This document shows positions 7,645 to 26,804 of a stretch of 28,085 nt of DNA, in pieces. The notes under the pieces are model-generated. The model was not told the DNA's origin. It made no database searches and saw only the letters and a list, made by a program, of their open reading frames with translations. Each line of letters starts with the position of its first letter. Position 1 is the first letter of the stretch. The position numbers and the translations under genes were made by a program. Origin of the DNA: a virus; IMG/VR virus record IMGVR_UViG_3300042261_000484, positions 1 to 28,085 of that record; one strand, written 5' to 3'.

Positions 7645-7649
7645 CACCG

Positions 7650-7703
7650 ATGCACTTACCGCCTGGTGGTGGGCTTAGGCTTTGCCACCATGCGCGATAT
7701 TGA
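7650..7703 (+). CDS. Mini-ORF A starting with the GATGCACTTA repeat (17 aa)
   Basis: This is an open frame beginning ATGCACTTACCGC, 5 bases after the terL stop, encoding MHLPPGGGLRLCHHARY. The same word starts three other short frames between late genes. Its stop lies 14 bases inside the acetyltransferase gene, so it could couple terL and acetyltransferase translation. No Shine-Dalgarno precedes it. Whether it is translated, or whether the word acts as DNA or RNA, cannot be told from one sequence. Confidence 0.35.
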   Translation: MHLPPGGGLRLCHHARY

Positions 7704-8145
7704 AATTAGACCTTGTACTGTGATTGACGTTGTCGGGGCTTCCACTTACGAAGCCCTGATCCACGCCTACGCCGCTGAATCCGCGTTGGATGATATGCCG
7801 ACACCGGAACCCGACGTTGCGATGTACCACGCGCTCGAAGCGAATGGCTCGCTTAAAGTCGTTGGGGCATTTAGCCAAGGGCAGTTGGTCGGCTTTATGG
7901 CGTGCAATATGAACTACGCACCGCAATACGCCGCAATCGTCGGTTTGACGATGGTGTTTTTTGTCGCTCATTCACACCGCACCTACGGCACAGGCGCACG
8001 CATGGTGGAAGCCATGAAAGCGTTGGCCAAAGCGCAAGGCGCTGTGGGGTTGATGATCGGCGCACCGGCTGAAAGCCGTTTAGCTAAAGCCGCACCGATC
8101 CTGGGCTTTAAAGAAACCAACCGACTTTACTTCAAGGCGATCTGA
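7690..8145 (+). CDS. GNAT-family N-acetyltransferase
   Basis: The 151-residue product has the GNAT layout: an N-terminal strand and helix (IEIRPCT, then ASTYEALIHAY), a central beta-sheet (VVGAFSQGQLVGFMAC), the segment VGLTMVFFVAHSHRTYGTGARMV whose H-x-x-YGTGAR part fits the acetyl-CoA pyrophosphate loop, and a C-terminal GFKETNRLYFK typical of the family. The acceptor is unknown; phages with T7-like portals often carry such a gene between terminase and portal. ATG 7690 is preferred to a GTG at 7666 because the family fold begins at once. The end overlaps the next start as TGATG. Confidence 0.82.
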   Translation: MRDIEIRPCTVIDVVGASTYEALIHAYAAESALDDMPTPEPDVAMYHALEANGSLKVVGAFSQGQLVGFMACNMNYAPQYAAIVGLTMVFFVAHSHRTYGTGARMVEAMKALAKAQGAVGLMIGAPAESRLAKAAPILGFKETNRLYFKAI

Positions 8146-8618
8146 TGGACTTGCGTGTGCTTGATTCTACGGGATTGCCAACGATGAGTCGCGAAGCCAT
8201 CGACAAAGCGCACGCACTACACCGCGCAATGGAAGCCTTGCCGCAGGTGGACATTGAGATCACGCACTGTTTGCACGACGGGGTTTACGCCCGCACTGCC
8301 TTCGTACCGGCCGGGATCATGGTCATGGGCGTGTTAATCAAGATACCCACCACCGTGATCGTTAGCGGTCACGCCAAGGTGTTTATCGGTGACGACACGA
8401 TTGTGGTGCAAGGGTATCGCGTGATTGCAGGCGCACCTGGCAGAAAGCAAGCGGCATTGGCCCTTGAAGACACGCATTTCACTATGTTGTTTGCCACTAG
8501 CGCCAGCACGATCGAAGAGGCCGAGCGAGAATTCACCGACGAGGTCGAGCAACTCACGACCCGTCGACCAAACAATCAACTGGATACAGGAGCAAAACCA
8601 TGTCTGGAGCAGCAATAG
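8145..8618 (+). CDS. Conserved phage protein, cupin-like fold suspected (157 aa)
   Basis: I recall similar proteins beside terminase and portal genes in podoviruses but know no proven function. After a helical start (REAIDKAHALHRAMEALP), residues 40-110 are beta-rich with repeating turns (THCLHDGVYARTAFVPAG, VSGHAKVFIGDDTIVVQGYR). This resembles a cupin-like barrel with His42 and His46 as possible metal ligands. Residues 118-145 include a helix (TIEEAEREFTDEVEQL). The start overlaps the acetyltransferase stop (TGATG) and the end overlaps the next gene by 19 bases. A structural or head-completion role is possible. The fold is a guess from pattern. Confidence 0.7.
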   Translation: MDLRVLDSTGLPTMSREAIDKAHALHRAMEALPQVDIEITHCLHDGVYARTAFVPAGIMVMGVLIKIPTTVIVSGHAKVFIGDDTIVVQGYRVIAGAPGRKQAALALEDTHFTMLFATSASTIEEAEREFTDEVEQLTTRRPNNQLDTGAKPCLEQQ

Positions 8619-8908
8619 CAGTAGCGGCCGCAGTAGCGGGTACTGCCATGTCAGCCATTCAAGGCGCAGACCAAGCAGACGCCGCCAAAAAATCCATGCA
8701 ACAAGCCCAAGCCAACGCGGATCGCACCGCGGCGCAAGCAGACCAGGAATTTAACCGGGCGAATCAAAAGAAGCCCGACACGATGGCCATTTTGTCGGCC
8801 GCGCAACAATCCGGTAAGCAAGGTGCATCAGGCACGATGCTGACTGGCCCTCAAGGGATTGATCCTACGACTTTGGCCTTGGGCAAATCAACGCTATTAG
8901 GTTCTTAA
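8600..8908 (+). CDS. Ala-rich conserved phage protein upstream of portal (102 aa)
   Basis: The protein opens with a hydrophobic Ala/Val helix (residues 3-20), continues with a coiled-coil-like polar helix (DAAKKSMQQAQANADRTAAQ), and ends in a Gly/Ser/Leu segment (GTMLTGPQGIDPTTLALG) that I have seen at the end of small proteins preceding T7-like portals. It may be a minor virion or ejection-related protein, or a membrane-associated assembly factor. The ribosome site CAGGAG lies inside the upstream gene, and the portal start follows the stop by one base. Function is not established. Confidence 0.72.
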   Translation: MSGAAIAVAAAVAGTAMSAIQGADQADAAKKSMQQAQANADRTAAQADQEFNRANQKKPDTMAILSAAQQSGKQGASGTMLTGPQGIDPTTLALGKSTLLGS

Positions 8909-8909
8909 G

Positions 8910-10577
8910 ATGCAAGGCACACCACGTCGCGATAAGTTACAAAGCCGCTGGGGACAACTCAAGTCTGAACGCGCGTCATGGTGGGCGCATTGGAAAGAGC
9001 TGTCCGATTACCTTTTGCCCCGATCTGGGCGCTATTTCGTCCAGGATCGCAACAAGGGCGGGCGCCGCAATAACAGCATTTATGACAACACCGGCACGCG
9101 TAGTCTTCGGGTGCTGGCCGCGGGCATGATGTCGGGTTTAACTAGCCCGGCTCGCCCGTGGTTTCGGTTGTCCACCGCTGATCCTGACCTCATGCAATAC
9201 CAGCCGGTTAAAGCCTGGCTGAATGATGTCACCAACTTGATGCTGGCGATCTATCAGCGCTCGAATACCTACCGCACCTTGCACCAGATGTACGAAGAAT
9301 TGGGGACGTTCGGCACGGCGGCTTGTATCGTGATGCCCGATTTCGACAACGTGATTCACCTGTACCCGTTGACCATTGGCGAGTACGCCATTGCGACTAA
9401 CTGGAAGGGGGAAGTCACGACCCTATACCGCGAGTTTCAAAAAACCGTGGCCGAGGTGGTGAAGGAATTTGGCATCGAGAACGTGCAACCCTCAACGCGT
9501 TCGATGTTTGAGCGCGGATCACTGGATCAGTGGATCACGATCATTCACGCCATCGAACCACGCGCGGATCGGGACATCACCAAGAAAGACGACATGAATA
9601 TGCCTTGGCGATCGGTCTACTTTGAGGTGGGATCGGCACCAGATCATTACCTGCGCGAGTCTGGCTTTAAGCGTTTTCCTGGTTTGGCCCCCCGTTGGGC
9701 GGTCGCTGGCGGTGACATATACGGCAATAGCCCAGGGATGGAAGCGCTAGGCGACATCAAACAGTTACAGCACGAGCAGCTACGCAAAGCCCAAGGCATC
9801 GACTATAAGACCAACCCACCGTTACAGGTGCCAACGTCCATGAAAAATCGTGACGTTGAGCGTTTACCGGGCGGCGTGACTTATGTCGATTTGGCCGGCG
9901 GATCGCAAGGTGTCAAGACCGCTTTCGAGGTCAACCTTGACTTGTCGCACTTATTGCAGGACATCCAGGACGTTCGCCAACGTATCGAAGGCAGTTTCTA
10001 CGCCGATTTGTTCCTGATGCTGGCCAACCAAAGCGACGCGCGGATGACCGCGACCGAGGTGGCCGAACGCCATGAAGAAAAGATGCTGATGCTCGGCCCC
10101 GTGCTAGAGCGTTTGCAAAATGAACTACTCGACCCGCTGATCGAAATGACCTTCGATTACATCATGGAGGCCGGCTTAATGCCGCCGCCGCCCGAGGAAA
10201 TGCAGGGCCATGACATCAACGTTGAGCTGATTTCGATGCTGGCGCAGGCGCAACGCGCGGTGGGCACCAACTCGATCGATCGATTGCTAGGCACTGTGGG
10301 CGCCGTGGCACAGTACAAACCCGAAGCACTGGACAAGATCGACGCCGACAGCCTGGTGGACATCTACGCAGACGGCTTAGGCACCGACCCGCGCATTCTG
10401 TTAGCGCAGGACAAAGTCGAAGCGATCCGCGCACAACGTGCAGACGCCCAACAAAAAATGGCGCAGTCCGCCATGATGAACCAAGGCGCCGATACCGCGC
10501 AGAAACTCGCATCAGCCAAGACCGATCAACAAAGCGTATTGACCGATGTCACACGACAATTTTCTGGATACACATAA
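8910..10577 (+). CDS. Portal protein (T7-like head-to-tail connector)
   Basis: This 555-residue protein should form the dodecameric ring at the portal vertex through which DNA enters and leaves. The N-terminus LKSERASWWAHWKELSDYLL, then YDNTGTRSLRVLAAGMMSGL and SPARPWFRL, is the hallmark of the head-to-tail connecting protein family to which T7 gp8 belongs. The middle has the conserved GDIYGNSPGMEALGDIKQLQ, part of the clip and stem region. Residues from about 500 on form a long polar helix (KVEAIRAQRADAQQKMAQ). Length is close to the T7 relative. The gene is followed at once by a very strong ribosome site for the next gene. Confidence 0.93.
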   Translation: MQGTPRRDKLQSRWGQLKSERASWWAHWKELSDYLLPRSGRYFVQDRNKGGRRNNSIYDNTGTRSLRVLAAGMMSGLTSPARPWFRLSTADPDLMQYQPVKAWLNDVTNLMLAIYQRSNTYRTLHQMYEELGTFGTAACIVMPDFDNVIHLYPLTIGEYAIATNWKGEVTTLYREFQKTVAEVVKEFGIENVQPSTRSMFERGSLDQWITIIHAIEPRADRDITKKDDMNMPWRSVYFEVGSAPDHYLRESGFKRFPGLAPRWAVAGGDIYGNSPGMEALGDIKQLQHEQLRKAQGIDYKTNPPLQVPTSMKNRDVERLPGGVTYVDLAGGSQGVKTAFEVNLDLSHLLQDIQDVRQRIEGSFYADLFLMLANQSDARMTATEVAERHEEKMLMLGPVLERLQNELLDPLIEMTFDYIMEAGLMPPPPEEMQGHDINVELISMLAQAQRAVGTNSIDRLLGTVGAVAQYKPEALDKIDADSLVDIYADGLGTDPRILLAQDKVEAIRAQRADAQQKMAQSAMMNQGADTAQKLASAKTDQQSVLTDVTRQFSGYT

Positions 10578-10588
10578 GGAGATATACC
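10576..10588 (+). promoter_or_regulatory. Strong T7 gene 10-like ribosome binding site
   Basis: AAGGAGATATACC stands one base before ATG 10590 and overlaps the portal stop. Its first 12 bases equal the leader of the T7 capsid gene. It should drive high translation of the downstream small virion protein. Confidence 0.75.
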
Positions 10589-10589
10589 A

Positions 10590-10892
10590 ATGGCAAAAAT
10601 GTTATTTCAGTGGAACCCCCAAACCAAAAGGCAAATCTTCCACACCGATTTTCAGGGCGAAGCAATCACCCCGTCTGACTCCGCAGACCTGGTCAGTGGC
10701 CCAGCGATCGGCATCGCCGTCACAGGCGCTGGTGCAGTAGCGGTTCAGCTTGATGGTGGTAGTACCGCGGTACTAACCCTGTCCGACACTAATGAGCCGT
10801 ATCTGTGCCAGGTTAAACGTGTTCTGGCGACCGGCACTACTGCAACCGGCATCTATGCACTGTACGCCGGCGCGACAATGGGCAACGTCTAA
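10590..10892 (+). CDS. Spike-base / decoration-like protein, copy 1 (Rcc01079-like)
   Basis: This 100-residue beta-rich protein contains AITPSDSADL, an internal GAGAVAVQLDGGSTAVLTL, and VKRVLATGTTATGIYALY. This is the pattern I know from the spike base protein family named after Rcc01079 of the Rhodobacter gene transfer agent, also found in phages. It would be a small beta-sandwich attached to the capsid or vertex. The neighbouring gene is a diverged copy. The very strong ribosome site suggests many copies per virion, which fits a decoration protein better than a tail part. Confidence 0.75.
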   Translation: MAKMLFQWNPQTKRQIFHTDFQGEAITPSDSADLVSGPAIGIAVTGAGAVAVQLDGGSTAVLTLSDTNEPYLCQVKRVLATGTTATGIYALYAGATMGNV

Positions 10893-10904
10893 GGAGGTTT
10901 GGCG

Positions 10905-11186
10905 ATGCAAACAACCCCAACCCCGTTTATTCAAGACCTCAACTGGTACACGCCGATCCGGGACATCAAAGTGGTGACACCCAGTGACGCCGCTGATCTG
11001 CCAAATGGGGTTTGCCGCGCGGTCATTTTCAACGGCACTGGCAACATTACGTTTATCACCCCAGGCGATACCACTGTTACGCTGGCGATCACCTCAAGCT
11101 GGTTCGGCGTCCAGTACATCATGGCTAAGAAGGTGCTGGCTACGGGCACGACGATGCCCGCCAACACCATTTACGCTTGCTACTAG
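10905..11186 (+). CDS. Spike-base / decoration-like protein, copy 2
   Basis: This 93-residue paralogue of the preceding product keeps VTPSDAADL and KKVLATGTT in the same order and spacing, with NGTGNITFITPGDTTVTLAI between. It has an extra N-terminal segment (TPFIQDLNWYTPIRDIKV). ATG 10905 is chosen because a perfect AAGGAGG lies 7 bases upstream; a TTG at 10899 overlaps that spacing. The duplication suggests two different positions on one capsid or a mixed assembly. Placement on the virion is inferred from the family and the location between portal and capsid genes. Confidence 0.72.
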   Translation: MQTTPTPFIQDLNWYTPIRDIKVVTPSDAADLPNGVCRAVIFNGTGNITFITPGDTTVTLAITSSWFGVQYIMAKKVLATGTTMPANTIYACY

Positions 11187-11198
11187 GGGATAGATAAA

Positions 11199-11678
11199 AT
11201 GTCAGATTACAACATTCAAACCGTCGCCGGTTTACATAACCGCTCGACCGGCGCTTTGGTTGGGTTTCTGGGCGCGGACGGCAAAGAGTACTTGCTGCCT
11301 GCGGGACAATCCACAATTTACAACCCCACGTCTGTAGCAGTTACGGGCGGCTCGGTGAACGGAACATCGATCGGCCAGGCAGCACCCGCCGCGGTGAAGA
11401 CGACCAACCTGGCAGCAACCTACTCCGACTCTTCTGGCACGCCAGGTAGCGCCTCTAACAATAACCCGCGCGGTCGTGCGGCGTTTGCGGCGGCGGCGTC
11501 CAGCGTGGTGATTACCAGTTCACTGGTCACTGCCGCTTCGACCATCTTGGTTTCCCTTGGCGGTAACGATGCGACGCTAACCAGTATCCGCGTAACCCCA
11601 GCGGCAGGGTCTTTCACCGTAACAGGTAACGCCGCCGCGACGGCCACAACCCCGTTCGATTGGGTAGTGGTGAACTAA
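11199..11678 (+). CDS. Beta-rich virion protein, head fibre or decoration type (159 aa)
   Basis: The N-terminus (NIQTVAGLHNRSTGALVGF, then ADGKEYLLP) looks like an attachment domain. The C-terminal half, GRAAFAAAASSVVITSSLV and SIRVTPAAGSFTVTGNAAA, ending FDWVVVN, is a beta-sandwich pattern that recurs at the tips of phage fibres and decoration proteins. It is flanked by spike-base-like and staple-like genes, so a capsid-surface role is most likely. A modest ribosome site (GGGGATA) precedes it and the stop is one base before the next ATG. The name is by pattern only. Confidence 0.68.
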   Translation: MSDYNIQTVAGLHNRSTGALVGFLGADGKEYLLPAGQSTIYNPTSVAVTGGSVNGTSIGQAAPAAVKTTNLAATYSDSSGTPGSASNNNPRGRAAFAAAASSVVITSSLVTAASTILVSLGGNDATLTSIRVTPAAGSFTVTGNAAATATTPFDWVVVN

Positions 11679-11679
11679 C

Positions 11680-11991
11680 ATGGCCTTAATCAACATGAAG
11701 ACTAGCGAAGACGGCGCAAATGAGGCGATCACGCCAAACCCATACGGTTATGGGCTTGAGCTTCGGTTAAACGAAGATCAATGCGAAGCGCTTGGCATCA
11801 CCACGCCGCCGACACCCGGTAGCAAAGTTATGATCAAGGCCGCGACCATCGTCACCGAGGTGCACCAAACCGTCGAAATGGACGGGGACGACGCCGGCCC
11901 TGATGTCTATATGTGCTTGCAGATCACTGATCTGGAACTGGGCGCCGCGGAGAGCGCGAACACTCAGGCCACCATGTTGTATGGCGACTGA
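11680..11991 (+). CDS. Capsid staple-like protein
   Basis: The product (103 residues) begins MALINMKTSEDGANEA and continues NPYGYGLELRLNEDQCEALG, TPGSKVMIKAATIV and YMCLQITDLELG, a pattern I recognise from proteins annotated as capsid staples in tailed phages. It probably binds the outer capsid and locks subunits against DNA pressure. The last codon overlaps the start of a GATGCACTTA mini-frame as TGATG, making it part of a coupled string reaching the Bbp19-like gene. Confidence 0.75.
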   Translation: MALINMKTSEDGANEAITPNPYGYGLELRLNEDQCEALGITTPPTPGSKVMIKAATIVTEVHQTVEMDGDDAGPDVYMCLQITDLELGAAESANTQATMLYGD

Positions 11992-12032
11992 TGCACTTAC
12001 CGCACCCATTACAAATTAGATTGAAGCCATGA
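11991..12032 (+). CDS. Mini-ORF B starting with the GATGCACTTA repeat (13 aa)
   Basis: The frame encodes MHLPHPLQIRLKP. Its ATG overlaps the upstream stop (TGATG) and its stop overlaps the next start (ATGA), so a ribosome could pass from the staple gene through it into the Bbp19-like gene. Its first 13 coding bases equal those of mini-ORF A. There is no own Shine-Dalgarno. Confidence 0.4.
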   Translation: MHLPHPLQIRLKP

Positions 12033-12331
12033 CACGAGATATTGACCCTTTTACGTTAGAAGACGCGCAGGCCGCTTACGCGGATAAAGCGCGTTTTGAA
12101 TCCGAACTAGAAATCAGTGATCTTAAGTGGCTAATGAGTAACAAGCGCGGACGACGTTTTGTCTTCCGACTGCTGGAACGCGCAGGGGTTTGGCGCCTTT
12201 CTTTTAACACCAACGCATTGTCGATGGCCTTCGCAGAGGGTACGCGCAACGAGGGGTTAAGACTATTGGCACAGATTACCGAACACTGCCTGGATCGACA
12301 CGCAGAAATGCTTAAGGAGCAAAGAGAATGA
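12029..12331 (+). CDS. Bbp19-like phage protein
   Basis: This 100-residue mostly helical protein carries the segment DLKWLMSNKRGRRFVFRLLE followed by MAFAEGTRNEGLRLLAQI, which matches the domain named after Bbp19 of Bordetella phage BPP-1. The family is found next to scaffold and capsid genes and is thought to take part in head assembly, with no proven activity. It starts inside the stop of mini-ORF B (ATGA) and its own stop overlaps the scaffold start (ATGA). The sequence before its start has no clear ribosome site, so translation may depend on the upstream frame. Confidence 0.8.
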   Translation: MTRDIDPFTLEDAQAAYADKARFESELEISDLKWLMSNKRGRRFVFRLLERAGVWRLSFNTNALSMAFAEGTRNEGLRLLAQITEHCLDRHAEMLKEQRE

Positions 12332-12978
12332 GTGAAACGCTGATTACCGGCGCTGACAATACAGATACAAGCGCAGACACACAGCAAATCGCTGACACCA
12401 CCACGACCGACACAACGGCCGCAGCGGATCAGCAAACGCAGACGCAATCAACCGACACGGACAAAACCGATACCACCAACGAAGGTGATAAAGGCGACCA
12501 AGGTAAAGCCGACGACAAGTCAGGCGCCCCTGAGCAGTACGAGTTTAAGGCACAAGAGGGCTTGCAGTTTGATGAGCAAGTGATCGAGGCGTACTCGGAA
12601 GTCGCTAAGGAATTGAATTTGTCGAATGACGACGCCCAAAAACTGCTTGATAAAGTCGCCCCGGTCATGGCCGCGCGACAACAAGAGCAGATCAAAGCGG
12701 TTGTTGATGGCTGGTCGGAAACAGCTCGCACAGACAAAGAGTTCGGCGGCGAGAAGTTATCGGAAAACCTGGCCACCGCGAAAAAGGCACTTGATGCCTT
12801 CGGCACGCCAGAGTTGAAAACCCTGCTTAACGAGTCTGGGCTAGGTAATAACCCCGAAGTGATTCGGTTTATGTACCGCGCAGGTAAACAGATAAGCGAA
12901 GACAAGTTCGTCGGCGGCAAAGGCCCGTCCGGCAGCGATAAGTCCCTCGCTGATAAATTGTATTCAAACCAAAAGTAA
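12328..12978 (+). CDS. Scaffold / head assembly protein
   Basis: The product has 216 residues. The first 65 are low-complexity Thr, Asp and Gln (DTTTTDTTAAADQQTQTQS), surely disordered. Residues 70-190 are helical, including VIEAYSEVAKELNLSNDDAQ and LLDKVAPVMAARQQEQIKAV. The tail is basic and Gly/Ser-rich (FVGGKGPSGSDKSLADKLY). Acidic disordered start, coiled middle, basic end and position just before the capsid gene are typical of phage scaffolds, which shape the prohead and then leave. No protease motif is visible, so removal is probably by exit rather than cleavage. Confidence 0.8.
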   Translation: MSETLITGADNTDTSADTQQIADTTTTDTTAAADQQTQTQSTDTDKTDTTNEGDKGDQGKADDKSGAPEQYEFKAQEGLQFDEQVIEAYSEVAKELNLSNDDAQKLLDKVAPVMAARQQEQIKAVVDGWSETARTDKEFGGEKLSENLATAKKALDAFGTPELKTLLNESGLGNNPEVIRFMYRAGKQISEDKFVGGKGPSGSDKSLADKLYSNQK

Positions 12979-12988
12979 GGAGTAGCCA

Positions 12989-13993: not shown

Positions 13994-14006
13994 TAGGAGA
14001 TTCATA

Positions 14007-14474
14007 ATGTATGTAGATAACGGCTTACTTGTTTCTGGTTCGGTGTCGGCAGCTAACGTCATCACCGGCCAAACAGTTAACGGCTCCGGTAACGTGCTGT
14101 CAACCAACACGGTTGACCTTTTGCAAAACCGAGATTTGGGCGAAGGTTTGGACGTATTCGCAAGGGTGCAGGCTACTGTTGCCCAAGCGGGCGCGACTTC
14201 GGTCGAGGTGCAGGCGATTACCGCCGACGATGCGGCGTTGACCGCCAACATTAACGTGTTGGCTACCACCGGCGCGTTGGCGATTGCGAAATGGTCGGTT
14301 GGCGCACGTCAGGCAATCAAATTGTCAGGCGTATTGAACAGCAAAGGCCAACGGTATTTGGGCATTCGCTATGTGATCGTCGGTACGTCTACCGCGGGCG
14401 CTTTCGTGGCTGATTTTGGTATCGGCGCACAAGGTGGCGGGGCGTTCTACCCTTCTGGTTTTACAGTTCTTTAA
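14007..14474 (+). CDS. Bbp16-family capsid cement protein
   Basis: The 155-residue product starts YVDNGLLVSGS and includes DLLQNRDLGEGLDVFARVQA, ARQAIKLSGVLNSKGQRYLG and GAFVADFGIG, matching the Bbp16 family described as capsid cement in BPP-1-like phages. It likely sits on the outer capsid at threefold or quasi-threefold positions. It follows the capsid gene by 13 bases with ribosome site AGGAG, so both would be made from one transcript before the strong terminator downstream. Confidence 0.8.
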   Translation: MYVDNGLLVSGSVSAANVITGQTVNGSGNVLSTNTVDLLQNRDLGEGLDVFARVQATVAQAGATSVEVQAITADDAALTANINVLATTGALAIAKWSVGARQAIKLSGVLNSKGQRYLGIRYVIVGTSTAGAFVADFGIGAQGGGAFYPSGFTVL

Positions 14475-14484
14475 GGGGTAGATC

Positions 14485-14649
14485 ATGGCTCAATACAAAG
14501 TTTTGGAAAGATCGTTTATCAATAACGCGATTGTTGAAGAGGGCGCCGTCGTCGAGTACGACGGTGAAGCATCCAGCAATCTGGAATTGATCGTGGAAGA
14601 AAAGCCAGCGAAGAAAGCGAAAGCTGACGCCGCTGACAGCTTGGTTTAA
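14485..14649 (+). CDS. Small phage protein of 54 aa
   Basis: This short frame has a good ribosome site (AAGGGG, 6 bases before ATG) and starts 10 bases after the cement gene stop. The sequence AQYKVLERSFINNAIVEEGA, then VEYDGEASSNLELI, is a pattern I recall from short proteins near phage capsid genes, followed by a charged Lys/Ala tail (EEKPAKKAKADAAD). It may be a minor head component. The strong terminator begins 21 bases after its stop, so it is the last gene of the capsid transcript. Confidence 0.75.
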   Translation: MAQYKVLERSFINNAIVEEGAVVEYDGEASSNLELIVEEKPAKKAKADAADSLV

Positions 14650-14670
14650 TCCTGTGTATGGCTGACTTTG

Positions 14671-14697
14671 CGGGGGCTTTATGCCCCCGTCTTTTTT
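14671..14697 (+). terminator. Strong Rho-independent terminator after the capsid genes
   Basis: CGGGGGC (14671-14677), loop TTTAT and GCCCCCG (14683-14689) form a perfect 7-bp GC stem followed by TCTTTTTT. It divides the late block into capsid and tail parts and lies only 11 bases before the next gene's start, so some read-through or an undetected promoter must supply the tail genes. Confidence 0.85.
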
Positions 14698-14708
14698 GGG
14701 GATAATGA

Positions 14709-15359
14709 ATGGCAACCGAAGTAGATATTTGCAACTTGGCCTTGGCTCACTTAGGCGATACCGCAACGGTGGCCAGCATTGATCCACCAGAGGGATCAGC
14801 GCAAGCAGAACATTGTTCGCGGTTTTATCCAATCGCGCGCGATGGATTGTTAGAGATGCACTCGTGGGGTTTTGCGACCAAACGAGTGCAACTCGCTTTG
14901 CTTTCCGAAGCATGGGGGGAATGGACGTATGCCTACGCCCAGCCAAATGACGCGGTTAACCTTATTGCCGTCATCGATCCTACGGCGACCGACGATTACA
15001 GTCAGACCTTAGAGAACGTCGCGGTAACCGCGGGCGGTTCCTATGTTCCACAAGCGTTTTCGTGTGAGATCAACGAAACCGGCGTCCCTGTCATTCTGAC
15101 CGATTTAGAAAACGCGGCCTTGCGATATACCGCCCAGGTGTCAGACACCGGAAACTTTTCGCCCTTATTTGTCACCACCTTGGCCTGGTATCTGGCCTCG
15201 ATGTTAGCCGGCCCCTTGATCAAAGGCGATGCCGGCGCGGCCGAGTCCAAACGATGCCTGGCGATGGTGAAATACTCCCTGGAACAAGCCGCCGAATCCG
15301 ATGCGTCACAGCGTCGAATCAACCCCGCGCAGAAAGTCGCGTGGATCAGCGGGAGATAG
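14709..15359 (+). CDS. Tail tubular protein A-like head-tail adaptor
   Basis: The 216-residue product begins ATEVDICNLALAHLGDTA, then SAQAEHCSRFYPIARDGLLE and MHSWGFATKRVQLA, the well-known start of T7 gp11-like tail tubular proteins, which bind below the portal and join head to tail. The C-terminal part (TTLAWYLASMLAGPLIKG, then a helix with SKRCLAMVKYSLEQAAESDA) fits too. Length is near the T7 protein. The start is ATG 14709, close behind the capsid terminator, with a weak GGGG ribosome site. Confidence 0.88.
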   Translation: MATEVDICNLALAHLGDTATVASIDPPEGSAQAEHCSRFYPIARDGLLEMHSWGFATKRVQLALLSEAWGEWTYAYAQPNDAVNLIAVIDPTATDDYSQTLENVAVTAGGSYVPQAFSCEINETGVPVILTDLENAALRYTAQVSDTGNFSPLFVTTLAWYLASMLAGPLIKGDAGAAESKRCLAMVKYSLEQAAESDASQRRINPAQKVAWISGR

Positions 15360-15362
15360 CGC

Positions 15363-17405
15363 ATGGCTAACCTAAAGACCCTGCAAAAGTCTTTCACAGG
15401 CGGCGAGATCAGCCCCGAAATGTTCGGGCGGATCGACGACGCTAAGTATCAGTCTGGCCTCGCTACTTGTCGCAACTTCATTGTGAAGCCCCAAGGCCCT
15501 GTGCAAAATCGCCCAGGCTTTGCTTTTGTGCGTGGGGTAAAAACCTCCGCCAAAAAAACCCGCGTGATCCCGTTCACTTATTCAACCACCCAAACAATGG
15601 TGATCGAATGCGGGGCAGGATACTTTAGATTCCATACGCAAGGAGCAACCTTGCTCAATGCTGGAGTGCCTTATGAAATTACCAATCCCTATGCCGAAGC
15701 TGATCTTTTTGATCTGCACTTTGTTCAGTCTGCGGACGTCCTGACCATTGTTCACCCGAACTATGCGCCGCAAGAGCTACGCCGTTTGGGGGCGACCAAC
15801 TGGACACTAACCACCGTTTCATTCAACGCGGCGGTAGCCGCACCAACGGGGGTAGCCGCCACCGCTACTGGATCGGGAACCGCAAATTACAGCTATGTGG
15901 TTACGACTGTTGGCGCGGATCAGGTGAGCGAGTCCGCCGCTTCAACCGCGGGAACGTGTACGAATAATCTGTTTACGTCGGGCAACAAAAACACAATCAC
16001 TTGGACTGCGGTAACGGGCGCGTGGCGATATAACGTCTATAAATTGTCCGGTGGGCTTTTCGGGTACATCGGGCAGACTGACGGCACGTCTATCGTTGAC
16101 GACAACATCGCCGCGGACATGGGCAAAACGCCGCCCATTTACGATGCGGTGTTCGGGTCGGCGGGCAATTATCCCGGCGCGGTGTCGTACTTCGAACAGC
16201 GTCGAAGTTTTGCCGCCACCACCAACGACCCGCAAACCATTTGGATGACCAAATCAGGCACCGAATCGGTGATGTCGTACAGCTTGCCAATCAGGGACGA
16301 CGACCGAATTAAGTTTCGGGTAGCCGCGCGCGAAGCGAACACCATCCGCCACATTGTGCCACTGACACAATTGCTGTTGCTGACCGGCGCCGCGGAATGG
16401 CGGGTGACATCGGTTAACTCGGACGCAATCACCCCGACGTCAATTTCAGTCCGCCCACAGTCATACATCGGCGCTAGCAATGTGCAGCCAGTGGTGATTA
16501 ACAACAATCTTATTTACGGCGCGGCGAGAGGCGGACATGTTAGAGAATGTGCATATAATTGGCAGGCTAACGGGTTCGTGTCCGGTGATCTATCGCTACG
16601 GGCGCCCCACCTGTTCGACTCTTTCGACATCACAGACATGGCCTACGCCAAAGCGCCCATTCCGCTTGTCTGGATGGTATCCACCACGGGTAAATTACTG
16701 GGTCTGACCTACGTCCCGGAACAGCAAATCGGCGCCTGGCATTGGCACGATACCGACGGGGTGTTCGAATCCTGCGCGGTGGTTGCCGAGGGCGGCGAAG
16801 ATTTTCTGTATTGCGTGATCCGCAGAACGATCAACGGGTCGTCGGTGCGGTATGTGGAGCGCATGGCGTCACGTCAGTTCGTTGATCCAGCCGACGCGTT
16901 CTTTGTGGACGCCGGATTGACTTATTCAGGCGCAGCCGCTACAACCATCAGCGGTCTGTCGCACTTGGAAGGCAAAACGGTCAACGTGCTGGCCGACGGC
17001 GCGGTACATCCGCAATGCGTCGTCACCAGCGGAGCAATCACGTTGCAACAGGCCGCCAGCAAAGTGCAGATTGGCTTGCCGATTACCGCCGACACGCAAA
17101 CCTTGCCGGTCGCCGCCCAGGTGGACAACGCCTTCGGGCAAGGGCGCTACAAAAACGTCAATAAAGCGTGGCTCCGAGTGTACCGTTCGAGCGGTATTTT
17201 TATTGGGCCGGATGCCGACAACCTGGTGCAAGTTAAACAGCGGACGACCGAGAACTACGGTTCCGCGCCAGCGCTTAAATCCGAAGAAATTTCGATCCTG
17301 TTAAATCCCTCTTGGGCGGATAGCGGCCAAGTATTCATCCGACAATCCGATCCACTGCCGTTGACTATCGCCAGTCTTACCTTAGAAATCGCGCTAGGCG
17401 GCTGA
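15363..17405 (+). CDS. Tail tube/nozzle protein (tubular protein B / stabilisation type) with inserted Fn3-like domain
   Basis: This 680-residue protein starts NLKTLQKSFTGGEISPEMFG, then SGLATCRNFIVKPQGPVQNR, the conserved opening of podovirus tail proteins that extend the tail tube (T7 gp12 or P22 gp10 role). Residues of about 158-256 (PTGVAATATGSGTANYSYVV to GWTAVTG-like turns and YNVYKLSGGLFGYIGQT) look like an immunoglobulin/fibronectin type III insert, often used for surface contact. The later part keeps EQRRSFAATTNDPQTIWMTK and LLLTGAAEWRV, matching the family. The ribosome site GGGAGA lies 6 bases before ATG 15363. The stop overlaps mini-ORF C (TGATG). Confidence 0.83.
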   Translation: MANLKTLQKSFTGGEISPEMFGRIDDAKYQSGLATCRNFIVKPQGPVQNRPGFAFVRGVKTSAKKTRVIPFTYSTTQTMVIECGAGYFRFHTQGATLLNAGVPYEITNPYAEADLFDLHFVQSADVLTIVHPNYAPQELRRLGATNWTLTTVSFNAAVAAPTGVAATATGSGTANYSYVVTTVGADQVSESAASTAGTCTNNLFTSGNKNTITWTAVTGAWRYNVYKLSGGLFGYIGQTDGTSIVDDNIAADMGKTPPIYDAVFGSAGNYPGAVSYFEQRRSFAATTNDPQTIWMTKSGTESVMSYSLPIRDDDRIKFRVAAREANTIRHIVPLTQLLLLTGAAEWRVTSVNSDAITPTSISVRPQSYIGASNVQPVVINNNLIYGAARGGHVRECAYNWQANGFVSGDLSLRAPHLFDSFDITDMAYAKAPIPLVWMVSTTGKLLGLTYVPEQQIGAWHWHDTDGVFESCAVVAEGGEDFLYCVIRRTINGSSVRYVERMASRQFVDPADAFFVDAGLTYSGAAATTISGLSHLEGKTVNVLADGAVHPQCVVTSGAITLQQAASKVQIGLPITADTQTLPVAAQVDNAFGQGRYKNVNKAWLRVYRSSGIFIGPDADNLVQVKQRTTENYGSAPALKSEEISILLNPSWADSGQVFIRQSDPLPLTIASLTLEIALGG

Positions 17406-17500
17406 TGCACTTAATCAAACGTCGAGCGGGTATGGTGATTGCCATTATTCCTCGGAGTTTACGATATGACAGTTCAAGGAGTCGGCGCCCCATCTTTTAG
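17405..17500 (+). CDS. Mini-ORF C starting with the GATGCACTTA repeat (31 aa)
   Basis: The frame starts inside the tail gene stop (TGATG), encodes MHLIKRRAGMVIAIIPRSLR and 11 more basic/polar residues, and ends 35 bases inside the next gene. The middle has a short hydrophobic run (MVIAIIP). Only the first nine coding bases match the other copies. The downstream gene has its own ribosome site here, so coupling is less needed than at B or D. Confidence 0.33.
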   Translation: MHLIKRRAGMVIAIIPRSLRYDSSRSRRPIF

Positions 17501-18113
17501 CGGCCTCAATGGCGGCGGCGGCATGGGCGGCCTGGGCGCGGCGTCGATCATTTCCAGTATTGGCGGTCTTTTTTCCTCAGCCATTGGTGGGTTTTACAGC
17601 GCCAAAGCCCAAAAATACCAACTTAAAACGCAGGCAATCATCGCCGACACCAACGCGCGTATCGCGGAGATGGGCGCGCAGTCTGCGCTTGCCCAAGGCG
17701 AACGCGAGATCGGCAACCTCACACTTAAAGCGGGTCAACTCAAGTCAACACAGCGGGCGTCGATGGCGGCCAATGGCGTTGATCTGGGCGAAGGCAACGC
17801 GGCGGAGGTGCTGGCTTCGACCGAGATTATGAAAGAGGTTGATAAGAACACCTTGCAAGCCAACGCGATTCGAAGCGCGTGGGGCTACCGGATGCAAGGC
17901 ACCAACTTTCAGAACGAAGCGCTGACCGCGCGCAATACCGCAGGGGCAATTAGCCCGTGGATGAGCGCGGCGGGCACCTTGCTAGGCGGTGCAGGCAACG
18001 TGGCGTCTAACTGGTACATGATGAACAAAATGGGGGCTTTCGATAAAGGCTCGATGTTCTACATGGGTGGATCAGGTTCGGCCGGATCAACCGGCGCCAT
18101 GGGAGGTAACTAA
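17466..18113 (+). CDS. Internal virion protein, T7 gp14-like
   Basis: The 215-residue product has a Gly-rich start, a hydrophobic stretch (residues 20-42, AASIISSIGGLFSSAIGGFY), then a helical core with IIADTNARIAEMGAQSALAQ and RASMAANGVDLGEGNAAEVL, and LQANAIRSAWGYRMQG. This core is typical of T7 gp14-type internal core proteins, which leave the virion first and form a channel in the outer membrane. A second hydrophobic Gly/Ala segment (SPWMSAAGTLLGGAGNV) lies at about 160-180. ATG 17466 is chosen for the CGGAG site 9 bases upstream. The stop overlaps the next start (TAATG). Confidence 0.82.
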   Translation: MTVQGVGAPSFSGLNGGGGMGGLGAASIISSIGGLFSSAIGGFYSAKAQKYQLKTQAIIADTNARIAEMGAQSALAQGEREIGNLTLKAGQLKSTQRASMAANGVDLGEGNAAEVLASTEIMKEVDKNTLQANAIRSAWGYRMQGTNFQNEALTARNTAGAISPWMSAAGTLLGGAGNVASNWYMMNKMGAFDKGSMFYMGGSGSAGSTGAMGGN

Positions 18114-20290: not shown

Positions 20291-23200
20291 GCGAACTAAA
20301 CATTCAAAACCCTGCTGACGTGATTGATCCCGCCCAACCAGACACCGCGCAAGCGGCCAGGGTGGGTTTCTTTTCGGCGGCGGAAACGGACCCGCAGACC
20401 TACGCGGAGATGAGCCGACTCGCCAAAATCGCCAACGTACCGGTAGATTCGGTGTTGCAAAGCCCGAAGGAAATCAAAAAGCAGGTCGCGCTGGATTCGA
20501 TCGACTTCGATTCGCTGGCCAAGACTTCGCCGTCCACTGCGTCGGTGATCGCCGACATCGACAAGGCCAAGATCACGCACGACGACATCAACAACATGAC
20601 CGGCCTAGAAGAGATCGTCAGCAAGTCGGGCAAATCATTCGCCCGTGGCGCCAGATCGCTGGCCGCCGGTCTGCTGTATGACCTGCCGTCTGGCGTAATG
20701 GGCGTTGGTGAAACGGGCGCCAGATTGCTGGCACCGCTGGCCGAACCACTGGCCGGTACGATCCTGCCAGAAAACCCGCTGCTGCGGATCGCCGAGGGTT
20801 TCAAAGGGCTGCGTCAATCCGGCAACGCATGGGGCAATATCGTCGCGGGCGATCAATCGGACGCGGGTTGGATCGAGCAGGCAGCAAACTCCGGTGTGCG
20901 ATCAGTCGGGCAGAACATTCCCGGCATGGTGGCATCGTTCCTGACAGAAAATCCCGCGTTTATGCTGGGCAGCGCGGGCATGATGTCCGGCAGTCAGGCG
21001 GCAACCAAAGCGCTGGACATGGGCAAGACACCCGCGCAGGCGGCGATGTACGGATTCGAGGACGCCACCGCCGAAGTGGTGACCGAAGCCATCCCGACGC
21101 TAAAACTGTTGAAAGACTTGAAACTGTCCGCACCATTCTGGAAGCTGTACGCCGGCCAGGTGGCGACTGAAGTGCCGAGCGAAATGGCGGCCACCGCGTG
21201 GCAGAACTTCAACGAGTGGGCGAACCTGCACCCTGAACAGACGTTCAAGGACTACGCCAAAGCCCTGCCCGAAGCCGAAGCGCAAACCGTGGTGTCCACC
21301 TTGGTCGCCACCATGCTGACGTCCGGCTTTGCGAAGACGGCCCACGCCGTTATCAATCGCGGTCAGAAACGCGACGACCAACTGGCGCAGGCGCAGGACG
21401 GCGCCCAGCAGGTGCAAAAGATCAACCAACTCGCGCAGGAAAGCAAAGTTATCCCGCGCGACAACGAACTGTTTCAGGACTTCGTCACGGATGCCGCCGA
21501 CCGCGGATCGCTGACCCACCTGAACATCAACGCCAACGCGCTGCTGCAATCCGGCATGGCCGAGCAACTGGCGCAGGTGTCACCGACGATTGCCGAACAG
21601 ATCAATCTGGCCGCGCAGACAGGTGGCGACATCGCCGTGCCGATCGGTGAATACTCGACCAAAATTGCGCCGCTGAAAGAAGCGGACGGGCTGGTGGATT
21701 TATGGCGATTGCCAGACAACGAACGCAGCCTGGCCGAAGAACAGGAATACTACAAGACGCGCGTCGAAGGTATCCAGCAGGAAGTTGAAAACGCGATCCA
21801 GGGCAAAGGGCAACAAGCCAAGTTCGACGAATCCCTGAACAACTTGCGCGCGAAGTTCACCAGTGAGATGAACGCACTCGGCCACCACACCCCTGACATC
21901 GTGGAGGCGCAGGTTACCCCGGCGCTGGAGTGGTATCGCGTCACCAGTAAAGCGATGGGTTTAACGCCGGAGGAATTGCACCAGCTTTACCCGCTGAACT
22001 TTGCGTCGGAATTGGCGCAAGGGGAAGGGGTGTTAAATCAAGGGAAACCTTTTGACTCGACAAAACTTGTTGAGTTCGACAAGTTTAAAACCGGACAACC
22101 GGTAACGTTTGATTTTATTCACAACACAGAAAGCGCAACCAAGCTGCTTGGTAAGCCAAAAAAGAACGCGCCGTATGGCCGGTTCATCGAACCGTCTGGG
22201 CGGTACGTTAGCGAAGGTACTTTGCTGGATTCAGCAAACCCAAACATGATTAGCGGCCAGTTGACGTTTAACAACCCGTTGGTTTTGAACGTTGATTCGT
22301 GGAAGCAAGACCTGTTTGACCACTACGGAAAACGCGGCAAGGCATTAAGCAAAGCGCTTATTGCTGATGGGTTCGATGGCGTCGTGACGGTGAACAAAGA
22401 CGACAGGCCTGGAAGAACCTATATATCTGAAATACTGGATTTGACCACTTTTGACGAAGCAAAAGCGCTTGATGCTTTGAAACAGCGCGGTGTCACCGAC
22501 ATCAAGATGTACGAACGGGGCAATGAGGAAGACCGCGCGGCGAAAATCCAAGAGTTCCAGCACCTCTTTTTCCAACAAAAACGCGGCGCATACAACACCG
22601 AGTCGCTCACAATCACCCAGCTAAAAGACGCTAACCTTTCGACGTTCCTGCACGAAACGGGGCATTTCTTCCTGGAAGCGAATTTTGACATCGCGTCTAA
22701 GTTGTCAGGAAAAACCGAACCACTGACCCCAGGTGAACAGCGTATCGTTGACGACGCGCAAACCACGCTGAACTGGTTTGGCGTTCCTGACCTCAACGCC
22801 TGGTATGCGATGGACTTCGAGCAAAGGCGCGGATTCCATGAGCAATTCGCCGAAGGCTTCGAGACTTATCTGTTTGAAGGCAAAGCCCCGTCAATGCAAC
22901 TGCAAGGGGTGTTCAACCGCTTCCGTGCGTGGCTGACTGAGGTCTACAAAAGCCTTAAAAATATGCGCGTCCAGCTCACCCCAGAGGTGCGCGGGGTGTT
23001 TGACCGTATGCTGGCCACCGACGAGGAAATCGACCTGGCGCGTAAAGCCCAGAGCATGTTCCCGCTACTTGAGCGGGGCGACATGTCGCCTGAAGAATTC
23101 GCGGCGTACCAAGCGCAAGGACAAGACGACATCGACGAAGCGAAAGCGGAACTCGGCAGAAAGGCCGCGCGTAATATGCAGTGGCTGGACAACGCCAAAA

Positions 23201-26200
23201 GCAAAGCGCTTCGCAAATTGCAAAAGCAGCATGACGCGATCCGCAGGGAAGTCCGCGCGGAAGTTCGACTGGAAGTCTTGGCGAAGCCTATCTACCAGGC
23301 TTACACCGCGCTGACGGCGAAGATCACCGACGAAGACAAGATCGCGCCATTGGAAAACCGCAAGTCCGATCCGAATGTCGTCGATCCGGCAACAGACAAC
23401 CTGGCGACCGCTATCGCCAAACTGGGCGGGTTGAACAAAGAAGAGGTGATGGAAGAGTGGGGCGTCGATCCTGCCTACAAACCGAAAACCGGCGTGTTTG
23501 GTAAGTCGGTTTTTAGGCGGGGTAACAATGGCTATTCGCGCGAAGCGATGGCCGAAATGCTGTCCGAACGGGGCTATCTGCGACAAGACCAGCACGGCAA
23601 ACACGACCTGCGTGAGTTTGAAGAGAAACTCGACAACCAGTTGCGCGGCATGGATCAGTATTCGACGCAATACGTTCCAGGGTTTGAATCTCAGGCCGGC
23701 GACCAGGTGGGCAACCCCGCAGCGCTGAAAGCAATGCGGCTAAACATCGACGGCCTGGCGCAGTCCGTGGACTGGCCAACCATCGATGTTTTGAAACATC
23801 GTCGCATGACCAGTGCAACAAGCGGACTTCACCCCGACCTGGTAGCCGATCTGTTTGGCTTCGGATCAGGTGAGGAATTAGCGCACAAATTGGCTGAAGC
23901 CACACCGCCGAAGGAAGCGATCGAAGCGCTGACCGACGCCCGTATGCTGGAACAGTACGGTGATCTGTCCACACCGGAAGCGCTGAACAAAGCAGCGCTG
24001 ATGGCGATTCACAACGACCTGCGTGTCAAGTTTCTGGCCACCGAACACGACACCCTGGCCGCAGCGATTGGGCAGAAAAAGGTGCTGACTGAACAGGCCA
24101 AGATTCTGGCGGAAACCACAATCGCCCGTAAGAAGGTCAGGGATGTGCAGCCGTCGCAGTTCACCGCTGCGGAAGCGCGCAACGCTAAAGCGGCGGAGAA
24201 GGCCAAGAAGTCCGGCGACATCGCCCAGGCCGCAGTCGAAAAGCGCAACCAGATTTTCAACGCGCTGGCGGCCAAGGCCGCGATGAACGCGCGCGAAGAG
24301 GTGGACAAGGGCATTCGCCGGCTGAAGCGCTTGCAGTCTGCCGGTTCGCAGTCGAACATGCGCGGCGAGTTTCTGGCACAGCTTAACGCACTGATGGCGC
24401 GGTTCGACATCCGCACCAGTCTGTCGTTGAAATCGATCGACCAGGCGCGCACCCCGCTTGCGACCTGGGTGCAGAACGAAGCCGAGCGGCTGGCTGCCGT
24501 CACCCCAGACCTGCCGGACTTTATCCTGGACGAAAGCGTCAAGACGCACTACAAAAACCTGACGGTCGAACAGTTCCGCGGGCTGATGGACACCATCAAA
24601 CAGCTTGAAATGCTGGCGCGACGTGAAGAGAAACAGTACCAGGCGATCCGCAACCAGACGTTCGCGCAAGAGAAAGCGGCAGCGCTGGAATCGATCCGCC
24701 AAACAAACCCCGGCGGATTTGACGGCGACGACACGCCGATTCCTGCCGATCCTAAGTTTGTGCCAAAACTCAGCGACGCCATGCAGAACGCAGGCGAAAA
24801 ACTTGTCGCTGAACTGGTCAACCCTGAGAACATCATTGATGTTATCGAAAACGGACGTATGGGGGCGCTGTGGGAGTCGATATTCGGCCGGATGTCACAC
24901 GCGTCTGACGCCAAAGCGTTGATGTATGAGAAAGTACGCAACGTGATGAAACCCTTCTTTGATGCTTACACCATCCAAGACAAAATATATTTTTCGACCA
25001 AGGGAATTTATGTTCCTGAGATTGGCACCAGCATCACTCGCGAAAACGCTGTTGTCACCGCGTTGCTATGGGGCAGCATGGATGGCCGCAACCGTTTACA
25101 GAACTACGGCTGGGGGCCAGGGCAAGCGCAAGCGATTATGGCGCACCTGCAAGACAAGGACATCAACCTAGTTAACGCTATTTGGGATTTGTTTGATAAC
25201 CAGCTTTGGCCTCAACTCAAAGCCTTGAACGAAGAGACCCGCGGCAAGGCACCGCCAAAGATAGAAGCAGCGCCGTTTACCCTGAACGGTCGCATCCTGT
25301 CGGGTGGGTACTTCCGCCTGAAGTACGACACCGAACTGGACGAACGCGCGCACACCATCGAGGAGGGCCAAGCGGTCACGGATTTGCTGGGCGGGTCGAT
25401 GGGGATGGCGAAGAAAACCAACCAAGGCACCAGCACCGAACGTCTGGACAAAGTCACCATGCGCCCGCGTCTGGACTTGGGTGTGTTCGCCGAAACCGTG
25501 GGCGAAACCCTGCACGACTTGGCGTATCGCAAAGCGGTGGCTGACACCATCCGCATGTTAAACGACCGGGCGATCACCACCGCGATCAAGGGCATAGTCG
25601 GCACACCAGGCTACCGCGCGCTGGTCGGGTTTGTGAGCGATGCCGCATCTCCGCCGCGCAATCCTGCGGGCGTTGTGGAAAAGACCCTTTCAGCCGCGCG
25701 CAAAAATACCGTGATCAACATGATGTCGGGCGTCAAAACCGCGTTGCAGAACTTCACCGGTCTGGTGCCTGCGTTGACTAAAGTCGGCCCGGCCAACTTG
25801 ACGCGCGAGGTGTTCCGGTTTTACAGCCCCAGCATGTTGAAACACTACAACTTTGTGATCGAGCAATCGGACTTCATGCGGAATTACTTCCACAGCTTCG
25901 ACCGCGAAGTCAGCAACATGGCGCGGCAGTTGACTGTCAGCGGCAGTCTGCGCCCCGACGACTCGGTGTTCCTAAGCCTGATGACCTGGGTGAACAAAGG
26001 CACCGCGACGCCCGTCTGGATGGCGGCGTTTAAAGACGGCATGGAGAAGTTCAACAACGACGAAGCGCAGGCGACTGACTACGCTGACCGCATTGTCAGG
26101 CAGACTCAAGGCTCCGGCCGTGACGTCGACCTGTCTGAAGTCATGCGCGGATCGGGTAAATCTGGGGAATTTAAAAAGCTGTTTACTATGTTTTACAGCT

Positions 26201-26739
26201 ACTTCAACGCGCAGATAGGGCAGTTGGTATCTAGCGGCGCGGTGTCCAAACGCCTGGCCAAGAAAAACCCGGCGTTAGCGGCGGCGAGATTTGCCAGAGA
26301 TTATATGTATGTAATCGTTATCCCAACTATTTTGACCGACCTACTGATGCATGGCACGGGTGACGATGACGAGGAAGAGCTGGCCCTTCGTTGGGCTAAA
26401 AAGAGCGCGCAGACTACGGGGCAATTGGTGCCTTTTTTCCGCGATGTATCGGCGTATTTGTTTGGTAAGTACGCGCCGGATACTAAGTACCATGCGGGGT
26501 TTAGATTGTCCCCAATTGAGGGCATGATAGAAACAACCGCAAGTGCCCCAGGTTCGGCGGTTGATTGGTGGAACGATGAGGAAACACCGGCGGATATTAA
26601 AAACATCATTCTTGGCACCGGGTTTGTGTTTCGTCTGCCAGGTAAACTGGTGTCCGATACCGTGATGGGAACCAACGCCTGGATGGAAGGAAGCGCCGGG
26701 CCAGAAGCGGTAATCCTTGGCCCACCTAGACAGCGGTAA
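20287..26739 (+). CDS. Giant polyvalent ejection protein (2150 aa) with ART-like, metallopeptidase-like and LPD38-like regions
   Basis: This is the largest gene and the third ejection protein. The N-terminal 600 residues have helical repeats and hydrophobic Gly/Ala patches (FMLGSAGMMSGSQAATKALD). Residues 600-725 look like an ADP-ribosyltransferase of the polyvalent type (FIHNTES, then YGRFIEPSGRYVSEGTL, then LIADGFDGVVTV). Residues 780-880 hold a zinc-peptidase motif HETGH at 789-793 and HEQFAEGFETYLFEGKAPS further on, with a candidate third ligand Glu. Residues 920-1500 are long charged helices. The last 400 include AAFKDGMEKFNNDEAQATDY and GEFKKLFTMFYSYFNAQIGQ, resembling LPD38, then a likely membrane segment (YMYVIVIPTILTDLLM, about 2005-2020). 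ATG 20287 overlaps the previous stop; a TTG at 20263 is less likely. Enzyme calls rest on motifs. Confidence 0.82.
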   Translation: MSELNIQNPADVIDPAQPDTAQAARVGFFSAAETDPQTYAEMSRLAKIANVPVDSVLQSPKEIKKQVALDSIDFDSLAKTSPSTASVIADIDKAKITHDDINNMTGLEEIVSKSGKSFARGARSLAAGLLYDLPSGVMGVGETGARLLAPLAEPLAGTILPENPLLRIAEGFKGLRQSGNAWGNIVAGDQSDAGWIEQAANSGVRSVGQNIPGMVASFLTENPAFMLGSAGMMSGSQAATKALDMGKTPAQAAMYGFEDATAEVVTEAIPTLKLLKDLKLSAPFWKLYAGQVATEVPSEMAATAWQNFNEWANLHPEQTFKDYAKALPEAEAQTVVSTLVATMLTSGFAKTAHAVINRGQKRDDQLAQAQDGAQQVQKINQLAQESKVIPRDNELFQDFVTDAADRGSLTHLNINANALLQSGMAEQLAQVSPTIAEQINLAAQTGGDIAVPIGEYSTKIAPLKEADGLVDLWRLPDNERSLAEEQEYYKTRVEGIQQEVENAIQGKGQQAKFDESLNNLRAKFTSEMNALGHHTPDIVEAQVTPALEWYRVTSKAMGLTPEELHQLYPLNFASELAQGEGVLNQGKPFDSTKLVEFDKFKTGQPVTFDFIHNTESATKLLGKPKKNAPYGRFIEPSGRYVSEGTLLDSANPNMISGQLTFNNPLVLNVDSWKQDLFDHYGKRGKALSKALIADGFDGVVTVNKDDRPGRTYISEILDLTTFDEAKALDALKQRGVTDIKMYERGNEEDRAAKIQEFQHLFFQQKRGAYNTESLTITQLKDANLSTFLHETGHFFLEANFDIASKLSGKTEPLTPGEQRIVDDAQTTLNWFGVPDLNAWYAMDFEQRRGFHEQFAEGFETYLFEGKAPSMQLQGVFNRFRAWLTEVYKSLKNMRVQLTPEVRGVFDRMLATDEEIDLARKAQSMFPLLERGDMSPEEFAAYQAQGQDDIDEAKAELGRKAARNMQWLDNAKSKALRKLQKQHDAIRREVRAEVRLEVLAKPIYQAYTALTAKITDEDKIAPLENRKSDPNVVDPATDNLATAIAKLGGLNKEEVMEEWGVDPAYKPKTGVFGKSVFRRGNNGYSREAMAEMLSERGYLRQDQHGKHDLREFEEKLDNQLRGMDQYSTQYVPGFESQAGDQVGNPAALKAMRLNIDGLAQSVDWPTIDVLKHRRMTSATSGLHPDLVADLFGFGSGEELAHKLAEATPPKEAIEALTDARMLEQYGDLSTPEALNKAALMAIHNDLRVKFLATEHDTLAAAIGQKKVLTEQAKILAETTIARKKVRDVQPSQFTAAEARNAKAAEKAKKSGDIAQAAVEKRNQIFNALAAKAAMNAREEVDKGIRRLKRLQSAGSQSNMRGEFLAQLNALMARFDIRTSLSLKSIDQARTPLATWVQNEAERLAAVTPDLPDFILDESVKTHYKNLTVEQFRGLMDTIKQLEMLARREEKQYQAIRNQTFAQEKAAALESIRQTNPGGFDGDDTPIPADPKFVPKLSDAMQNAGEKLVAELVNPENIIDVIENGRMGALWESIFGRMSHASDAKALMYEKVRNVMKPFFDAYTIQDKIYFSTKGIYVPEIGTSITRENAVVTALLWGSMDGRNRLQNYGWGPGQAQAIMAHLQDKDINLVNAIWDLFDNQLWPQLKALNEETRGKAPPKIEAAPFTLNGRILSGGYFRLKYDTELDERAHTIEEGQAVTDLLGGSMGMAKKTNQGTSTERLDKVTMRPRLDLGVFAETVGETLHDLAYRKAVADTIRMLNDRAITTAIKGIVGTPGYRALVGFVSDAASPPRNPAGVVEKTLSAARKNTVINMMSGVKTALQNFTGLVPALTKVGPANLTREVFRFYSPSMLKHYNFVIEQSDFMRNYFHSFDREVSNMARQLTVSGSLRPDDSVFLSLMTWVNKGTATPVWMAAFKDGMEKFNNDEAQATDYADRIVRQTQGSGRDVDLSEVMRGSGKSGEFKKLFTMFYSYFNAQIGQLVSSGAVSKRLAKKNPALAAARFARDYMYVIVIPTILTDLLMHGTGDDDEEELALRWAKKSAQTTGQLVPFFRDVSAYLFGKYAPDTKYHAGFRLSPIEGMIETTASAPGSAVDWWNDEETPADIKNIILGTGFVFRLPGKLVSDTVMGTNAWMEGSAGPEAVILGPPRQR

Positions 26740-26741
26740 CG

Positions 26742-26804
26742 ATGCACTTACTCACCCCGGTGAGCGATAGCCTAGCGCAATCTTTCATTGGGGTTAGTTT
26801 ATGA
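26742..26804 (+). CDS. Mini-ORF D starting with the GATGCACTTA repeat (20 aa)
   Basis: It lies 2 bases behind the giant protein stop, encodes MHLLTPVSDSLAQSFIGVSL and stops in an ATGA overlap with the tail fibre start. A small hairpin, CTCACC/GGTGAG (26750-26763), falls within it. No ribosome site precedes its ATG; GGGG at 26790-26793 could serve the fibre gene directly. Confidence 0.38.
   Translation: MHLLTPVSDSLAQSFIGVSL

Follow-up and report, generated by a model that had tools for sequence, protein, structure and literature searches.

Predicted late-gene promoters with a phage-specific box at the -35 position in BPP-1-like podoviruses, and a candidate HTH protein that would read it

Late-gene junctions of the window

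The analysed stretch of DNA (the window; 28,085 bases, IMG/VR record IMGVR_UViG_3300042261_000484) represents part of a BPP-1-like podovirus genome: its tail protein shares 73.5% identity with the Bordetella phage BPP-1 protein, and late genes are in the same order; no near DNA match to it was found among named phages. Four exact copies of a 10-base word, GATGCACTTA, begin at 7,649, 11,990, 17,404 and 26,741 (sites A to D), all on the plus strand and nowhere else in the record, against 0.02 copies expected from shuffled sequence. Each lies at a late-gene junction, no more than 5 bases from the upstream stop codon (TAA, 7,642–7,644; TGA, 11,989–11,991; TGA, 17,403–17,405; TAA, 26,737–26,739), and both the positions and the rarity reported in a preliminary description were reproduced. 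When two mismatches were allowed, the window contained 17 occurrences versus 19 expected, corresponding to background with no graded tail.

All features listed here are on the plus strand. At site A the word (7,649–7,658; 9-mer, 7,650–7,658) occupies the -35 position of a predicted promoter, with a -10 element, TAGGCT (7,676–7,681), 17 nt past the box, and the ATG of a GNAT acetyltransferase gene (7,690–8,145), predicted to be leaderless, 8 nt past the -10. At site B (box, 11,990–11,999; -10 element TAGATT, 12,017–12,022) the conserved parts are the box, the -10 and CATG, and the ATG of a Bbp19-like gene (Phage_Bbp19, PF25181; 12,029–12,331), 6 nt past the -10, coincides with the predicted +1, giving a second predicted leaderless gene. 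Site C (box, 17,404–17,413; -10 element TATGGT, 17,431–17,436) precedes a gene for a T7 gp14-like internal virion protein (17,466–18,113), with a leader that includes a Shine-Dalgarno sequence (CGGAG). Site D (box, 26,741–26,750; -10 element TAGCCT, 26,768–26,773) is spanned by a hairpin (26,754–26,794; z -4.07), and 3′ of it lies a tail fibre gene (26,801–28,085, running off the record) that matches the T7 tail fibre N-terminus weakly (E 0.03) and is placed in the gene order as bbp9 is in BPP-1. A gene at 5,417–5,647 encodes a 76-aa HTH protein, the ortholog of BPP-1 Bbp27 and the candidate box reader and late activator. A strong hairpin resembling a terminator, with 8 pairs followed by TTTTTT, lies at 14,670–14,690 in the gap between late genes ending at 14,474 and starting at 14,709.

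Promoter layout and predicted transcripts

In the clade of the window, TANNNT is found exactly 17 nt after the 9-bp box ATGCACTTA in 23 of 23 exact copies, and at a spacing of 16 or 18 in none. Sigma-70 -10 elements are most strongly conserved at these three bases (T, A and the last T), and 17 is their optimal spacing; the sites have T-12, A-11 and T-7 at 17 ± 1 from the -35 position, as in sigma-70-type promoters. A consensus scan of the four sites found no TTGACA-like -35 and no canonical promoter, the position reading CACTTA instead. The suggestion in the preliminary description that the word is a regulatory protein site appears to have been right, the word being the upstream element of a predicted promoter.

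When each relative was searched separately, without prior choice of word, for words recurring 17 nt before TANNNT, the same layout was recovered with other words (TGCACGTA, TGCGCGTA, TGCCCGTG, TACCCGTA and TGACCGTA). BPP-1-like relatives carry lineage-specific 9-mers at the same junctions and in the same layout (GTGCACGTA, GTGCGCGTA, GTGCCCGTG in BPP-1, GTACCCGTA and GTGACCGTA), and the nine-base forms at gene ends include, besides GTGCACGTA, GTGCGCGTA, GTACCCGTA and GTGACCGTA, GTGCCCGTR, GTATCCGTA and others; the wider family can be written as GTRNNCGTA. Four complete genomes (DC33, zth2-2, ctEw122 and ctQRb9) each contain exactly four copies of their own word, all with TANNNT at 17. The first of these (Limnohabitans phage DC33, PQ492659.1) is filed under Inoviridae (filamentous phages), yet is a 39-kb BPP-1-like tailed-phage genome. 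BPP-1 itself has three GTGCCCGTG sites with a -10, upstream of bbp24, bbp19 and bbp9; their -10 elements are TACTGT, TAGAGT and TAGCCT, with RNA starts predicted about 7 nt further on (near 24,095, 20,710 and 6,150 of the record), in the first two cases no more than about a base from an AUG; a fourth GTGCCCGTG, within the terminase small subunit gene, has no -10 and was not counted as a site. Likewise, ATGCACTTT at the start of the capsid gene of two loci (L005 and L007) has no -10 and was set aside as a coding coincidence. In the GTGCGCGTG lineage an extra box with a -10 is found between the HTH gene, which it follows directly, and the terminase small subunit gene (L097, 1,687; L098, 1,047).

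Across 112 non-redundant sites, retrieved with a purine at box position 1, T2, C6, G/T7, T8 and A/G9 plus TA...T, four parts hold most of the information: the box, the G before it, the -10 and the start codon, which sits at the predicted +1. The spacer and the 30 nt upstream hold little. The retrieval did not constrain box positions 3–5, the flanking G or the start codon. A second half-site 5′ of the box was considered and rejected, there being no conservation across those 30 nt.

The start codon of Bbp19 lies 5–9 nt past the -10 in 59 of 59 sites, and exactly 6 nt past it in 51, placing AUG on +1. Shine-Dalgarno energy is -1.2 kcal/mol at Bbp19 versus about -6.5 kcal/mol at sites C and D, and most acetyltransferase sites resemble Bbp19, with a start near the predicted +1 and a weak Shine-Dalgarno. 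A predicted +1 at or near a start codon that lacks a Shine-Dalgarno, the leaderless arrangement, is found at all 59 B sites and most A sites, where the AUG would coincide with the transcript start or adjoin it. Predicted leaders of the gp14-like and fibre genes are mostly 20–30 nt long and contain a strong Shine-Dalgarno. In the hairpin at D, the upstream arm precedes the predicted RNA start and the downstream arm contains the Shine-Dalgarno; that of BPP-1 (z -6.2) is followed by five T. Its arms pair better within a phage than when swapped across relatives (0 of 2,000 permutations). Promoter-spanning hairpins at all four junctions were considered, and arm swapping supports D only, with marginal values for C and A (about 0.055) and a weak one for B (0.03). 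The D hairpin is absent from GTACCCGTA lineages and so is not general; where present, it may stop or silence read-through RNA.

A check raised in the preliminary description, whether close relatives lack the word at these junctions, was made on IMG/VR genomes, and the word was retained. The frames that follow it differ (MHLG, MHLIKT and MHLISYP, each ended by a stop codon, and MHLSPLVG...), running from 2 to about 50 codons with only the word in common, and no conserved short frame was found among these relatives. The ATG-led mini-frames noted earlier do exist, but they differ between relatives and are incidental. That each word's ATG opens a short frame coupling translation of the neighbouring late genes, as first proposed, can draw on the TGATG stop-start overlap at B and C and on frames in the window that reach the next start. 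However, since the MHL frame is not kept in relatives, in which the DNA word and the -10 are conserved, the peptide reading fails; moreover, in other lineages the homologous box (GTGCACGTA or GTACCCGTA) does not have to begin a reading frame at all, transcription is predicted to start 3′ of the word, and the leaderless spacing at A and B would be left unexplained. We regard this reading as scarcely tenable.

The words might instead be conserved boundary sequences for recombination of phage modules, without a regulatory role. Lambdoid phages provide a precedent, in that short repeats at their gene junctions are known to act as recombination linkers, but this account predicts neither the exact 17-nt spacing to TANNNT nor a start codon at +1, and offers nothing on the co-variation with a single recognition-helix residue of a DNA-binding protein described below; we give it next to no weight. 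The related proposal that the word marks past gene insertion is not needed, dozens of relatives carrying the element at the same junctions in the same gene order.

The Bbp27-type HTH protein and its co-variation with the box

The 76-aa protein matches Pfam HTH_7 (resolvase/Hin type) with an E-value of 4.7e-5, just above the curated cut-off, and GcrA with a weak profile match (E 0.93). In nearly every relative the terminase genes follow its gene directly. An AlphaFold (AF2) model has three helices, with pLDDT of about 90 or more over the HTH, and the Hin HTH is among the structural matches returned by Foldseek (1ijw; TM 0.80 on the target, E 0.38), although the E-values fall short of significance, the domain being very small. 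In an ungapped alignment R58 falls on Hin Arg178, a residue with base contacts in the major groove, and V54 on Ser174. The BPP-1 protein is annotated as an ‘endonuclease’ (NC_005357; L085, 26,337–26,573) and its counterpart in MW202722 as a ‘54S ribosomal protein’ (L241, 36,495–36,830); both annotations look wrong.

Residue 58, in the recognition helix, co-varies with box position 5. Among 35 representative proteins (<80% identical), 29 fit a simple pairing, with K/C in 13, R/A in nine and D/G in seven; the others are M/A, N/A, S/A, G/G and S/G plus one contradiction, K/A (L213). The window protein is of the R type, that of BPP-1 of the K type and that of L022 of the D type. In this set residue 58 has the highest mutual information with box position 5 of any HTH column. 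Such raw pair counts are inflated by shared ancestry, an effect that a terminase tree and a terminase control address but do not abolish: on the tree, which covers 58 loci, residue and box base each change seven times and all leaves fit, and in a set of 17 terminase-diverse loci the box base is predicted perfectly by residue 58 alone of the 78 HTH columns and by none of about 500 terminase columns. Genomes examined after the rule had been noticed also fit it, namely DC33, zth2-2, ctEw122 and ctQRb9 and prophages in Ramlibacter, Gallionella, Sterolibacterium and one further proteobacterium. A search of HTH loci without the standard layout mostly gave no box, but in L206 it yielded GTGCGCAAA/GTGCGCATA, in agreement with the D residue of the L206 protein.

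No recognisable box with N17-TANNNT was found in L189, L190, L195, L246, L248 and L238 (Caulobacter phage JessA), all of which have the HTH gene and enough flanking sequence. Either box and HTH protein are not universally linked, or the boxes there differ beyond the search pattern; such loci may use a different box, or the role of the protein may have changed.

The small phage-encoded Hin-like HTH protein is, on these comparisons, the most likely candidate for the box reader. The box could also be read by another phage or host protein, for instance a phage sigma-like factor, with the HTH protein co-varying by linkage; linked genes do share ancestry, and TANNNT by itself is no proof of sigma-70. 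Against this, residue 58 is the only column that predicts the base perfectly and is aligned with the base-contacting arginine of Hin, no terminase column equals it, and at least seven switches on the terminase tree are matched by the residue each time. A different reader is accordingly very improbable in our estimation.

A proposed late-gene switch and its known counterparts

We consider it highly probable that the four words are -35-position elements of phage late-gene promoters, bound by a Bbp27-type HTH protein that recruits or retargets sigma-70 polymerase; box binding, activation rather than repression, sigma-70 use and late action are what we infer from sequence comparison. The protein, whose gene directly precedes the terminase genes, would be expressed from the early operon and would bind the 9-mer, which spans about -38 to -30, the stretch normally read as a -35 by sigma region 4. 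Once bound, it would direct the host sigma-70 RNA polymerase to weak promoters without a -35, replacing -35 recognition as MotA does on T4 middle promoters.

Activation is preferred over repression because the -35 is missing and the -10s are poor. A box placed over the -35 is a geometry also used by repressors, with much the same footprint on a sigma-70 promoter, and the phages are probably temperate, with CI/Cro-type genes in the window and in BPP-1, so that the HTH protein could cover the -35 of late promoters until late infection or during lysogeny. However, with no recognisable -35 and -10s such as TAGGCT and TAGCCT, these promoters would be weak unaided, and the HTH gene closes the early operon next to the terminase genes, a usual place for a late activator. 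We therefore think a repressor unlikely.

The proposed activator shares with MotA of T4 a box that replaces the -35, but MotA is a double-wing protein rather than a 76-aa Hin-like HTH protein, its box is centred at -30/-31 instead of lying at about -38 to -30, and it serves middle rather than late genes. T4 also needs an excellent -10, where here only TANNNT is kept, and in T4 MotA acts together with AsiA in sigma appropriation. Hin recombinase and the resolvases (HTH_7) have the same fold, and the recognition helix of Hin aligns without gaps with that of the window protein; the Bbp27 type, however, lacks the recombinase catalytic domain and would act at single promoter boxes rather than at crossover sites. 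Proteins of the GcrA type are likewise small HTH proteins, acting with the housekeeping sigma factor (PMC7403470), but no sigma-interacting domain was recognised here and the box is not a methylation motif. Leaderless TANNNT promoters of Deinococcus and Mycobacterium have the -10 about 6–7 nt before the start codon (PMC3898074, PMC3160421, PMC12340547); that layout is shared, but here it occurs mostly in proteobacterial phages, is limited to selected late genes and comes with a phage-specific box at -35.

Tentatively, the Bbp27 type may represent a new family of late activators: stand-alone Hin-like HTH proteins that would assume -35 recognition through a switchable residue-to-base code (K-C, R-A, D-G), with late-gene expression confined to the new transcript, which would be leaderless at A and B and, at D, would escape a hairpin that hides the Shine-Dalgarno in read-through RNA. 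In BPP-1 (NC_005357; L085, 6,184 to 140, minus strand) a D-type promoter heads the bbp9-mtd-avd-TR-brt-lysis genes, with no further box.

No description of late-gene control in BPP-1-like podoviruses, which include the model phage for diversity-generating retroelements, was found in the open-access literature searched. For these phages the analysis provides a set of predicted promoters, a candidate activator with a recognition rule that can be tested, and a corrected Bbp27 annotation, and the natural joint variants of box and protein offer a compact system for studying the evolution of activator specificity. Conserved leaderless late mRNAs in proteobacterial phages would be unexpected. If the Bbp27-type reading is true, the D promoter of BPP-1 would place the mtd-avd-brt tropism-switching cassette under the same switch.
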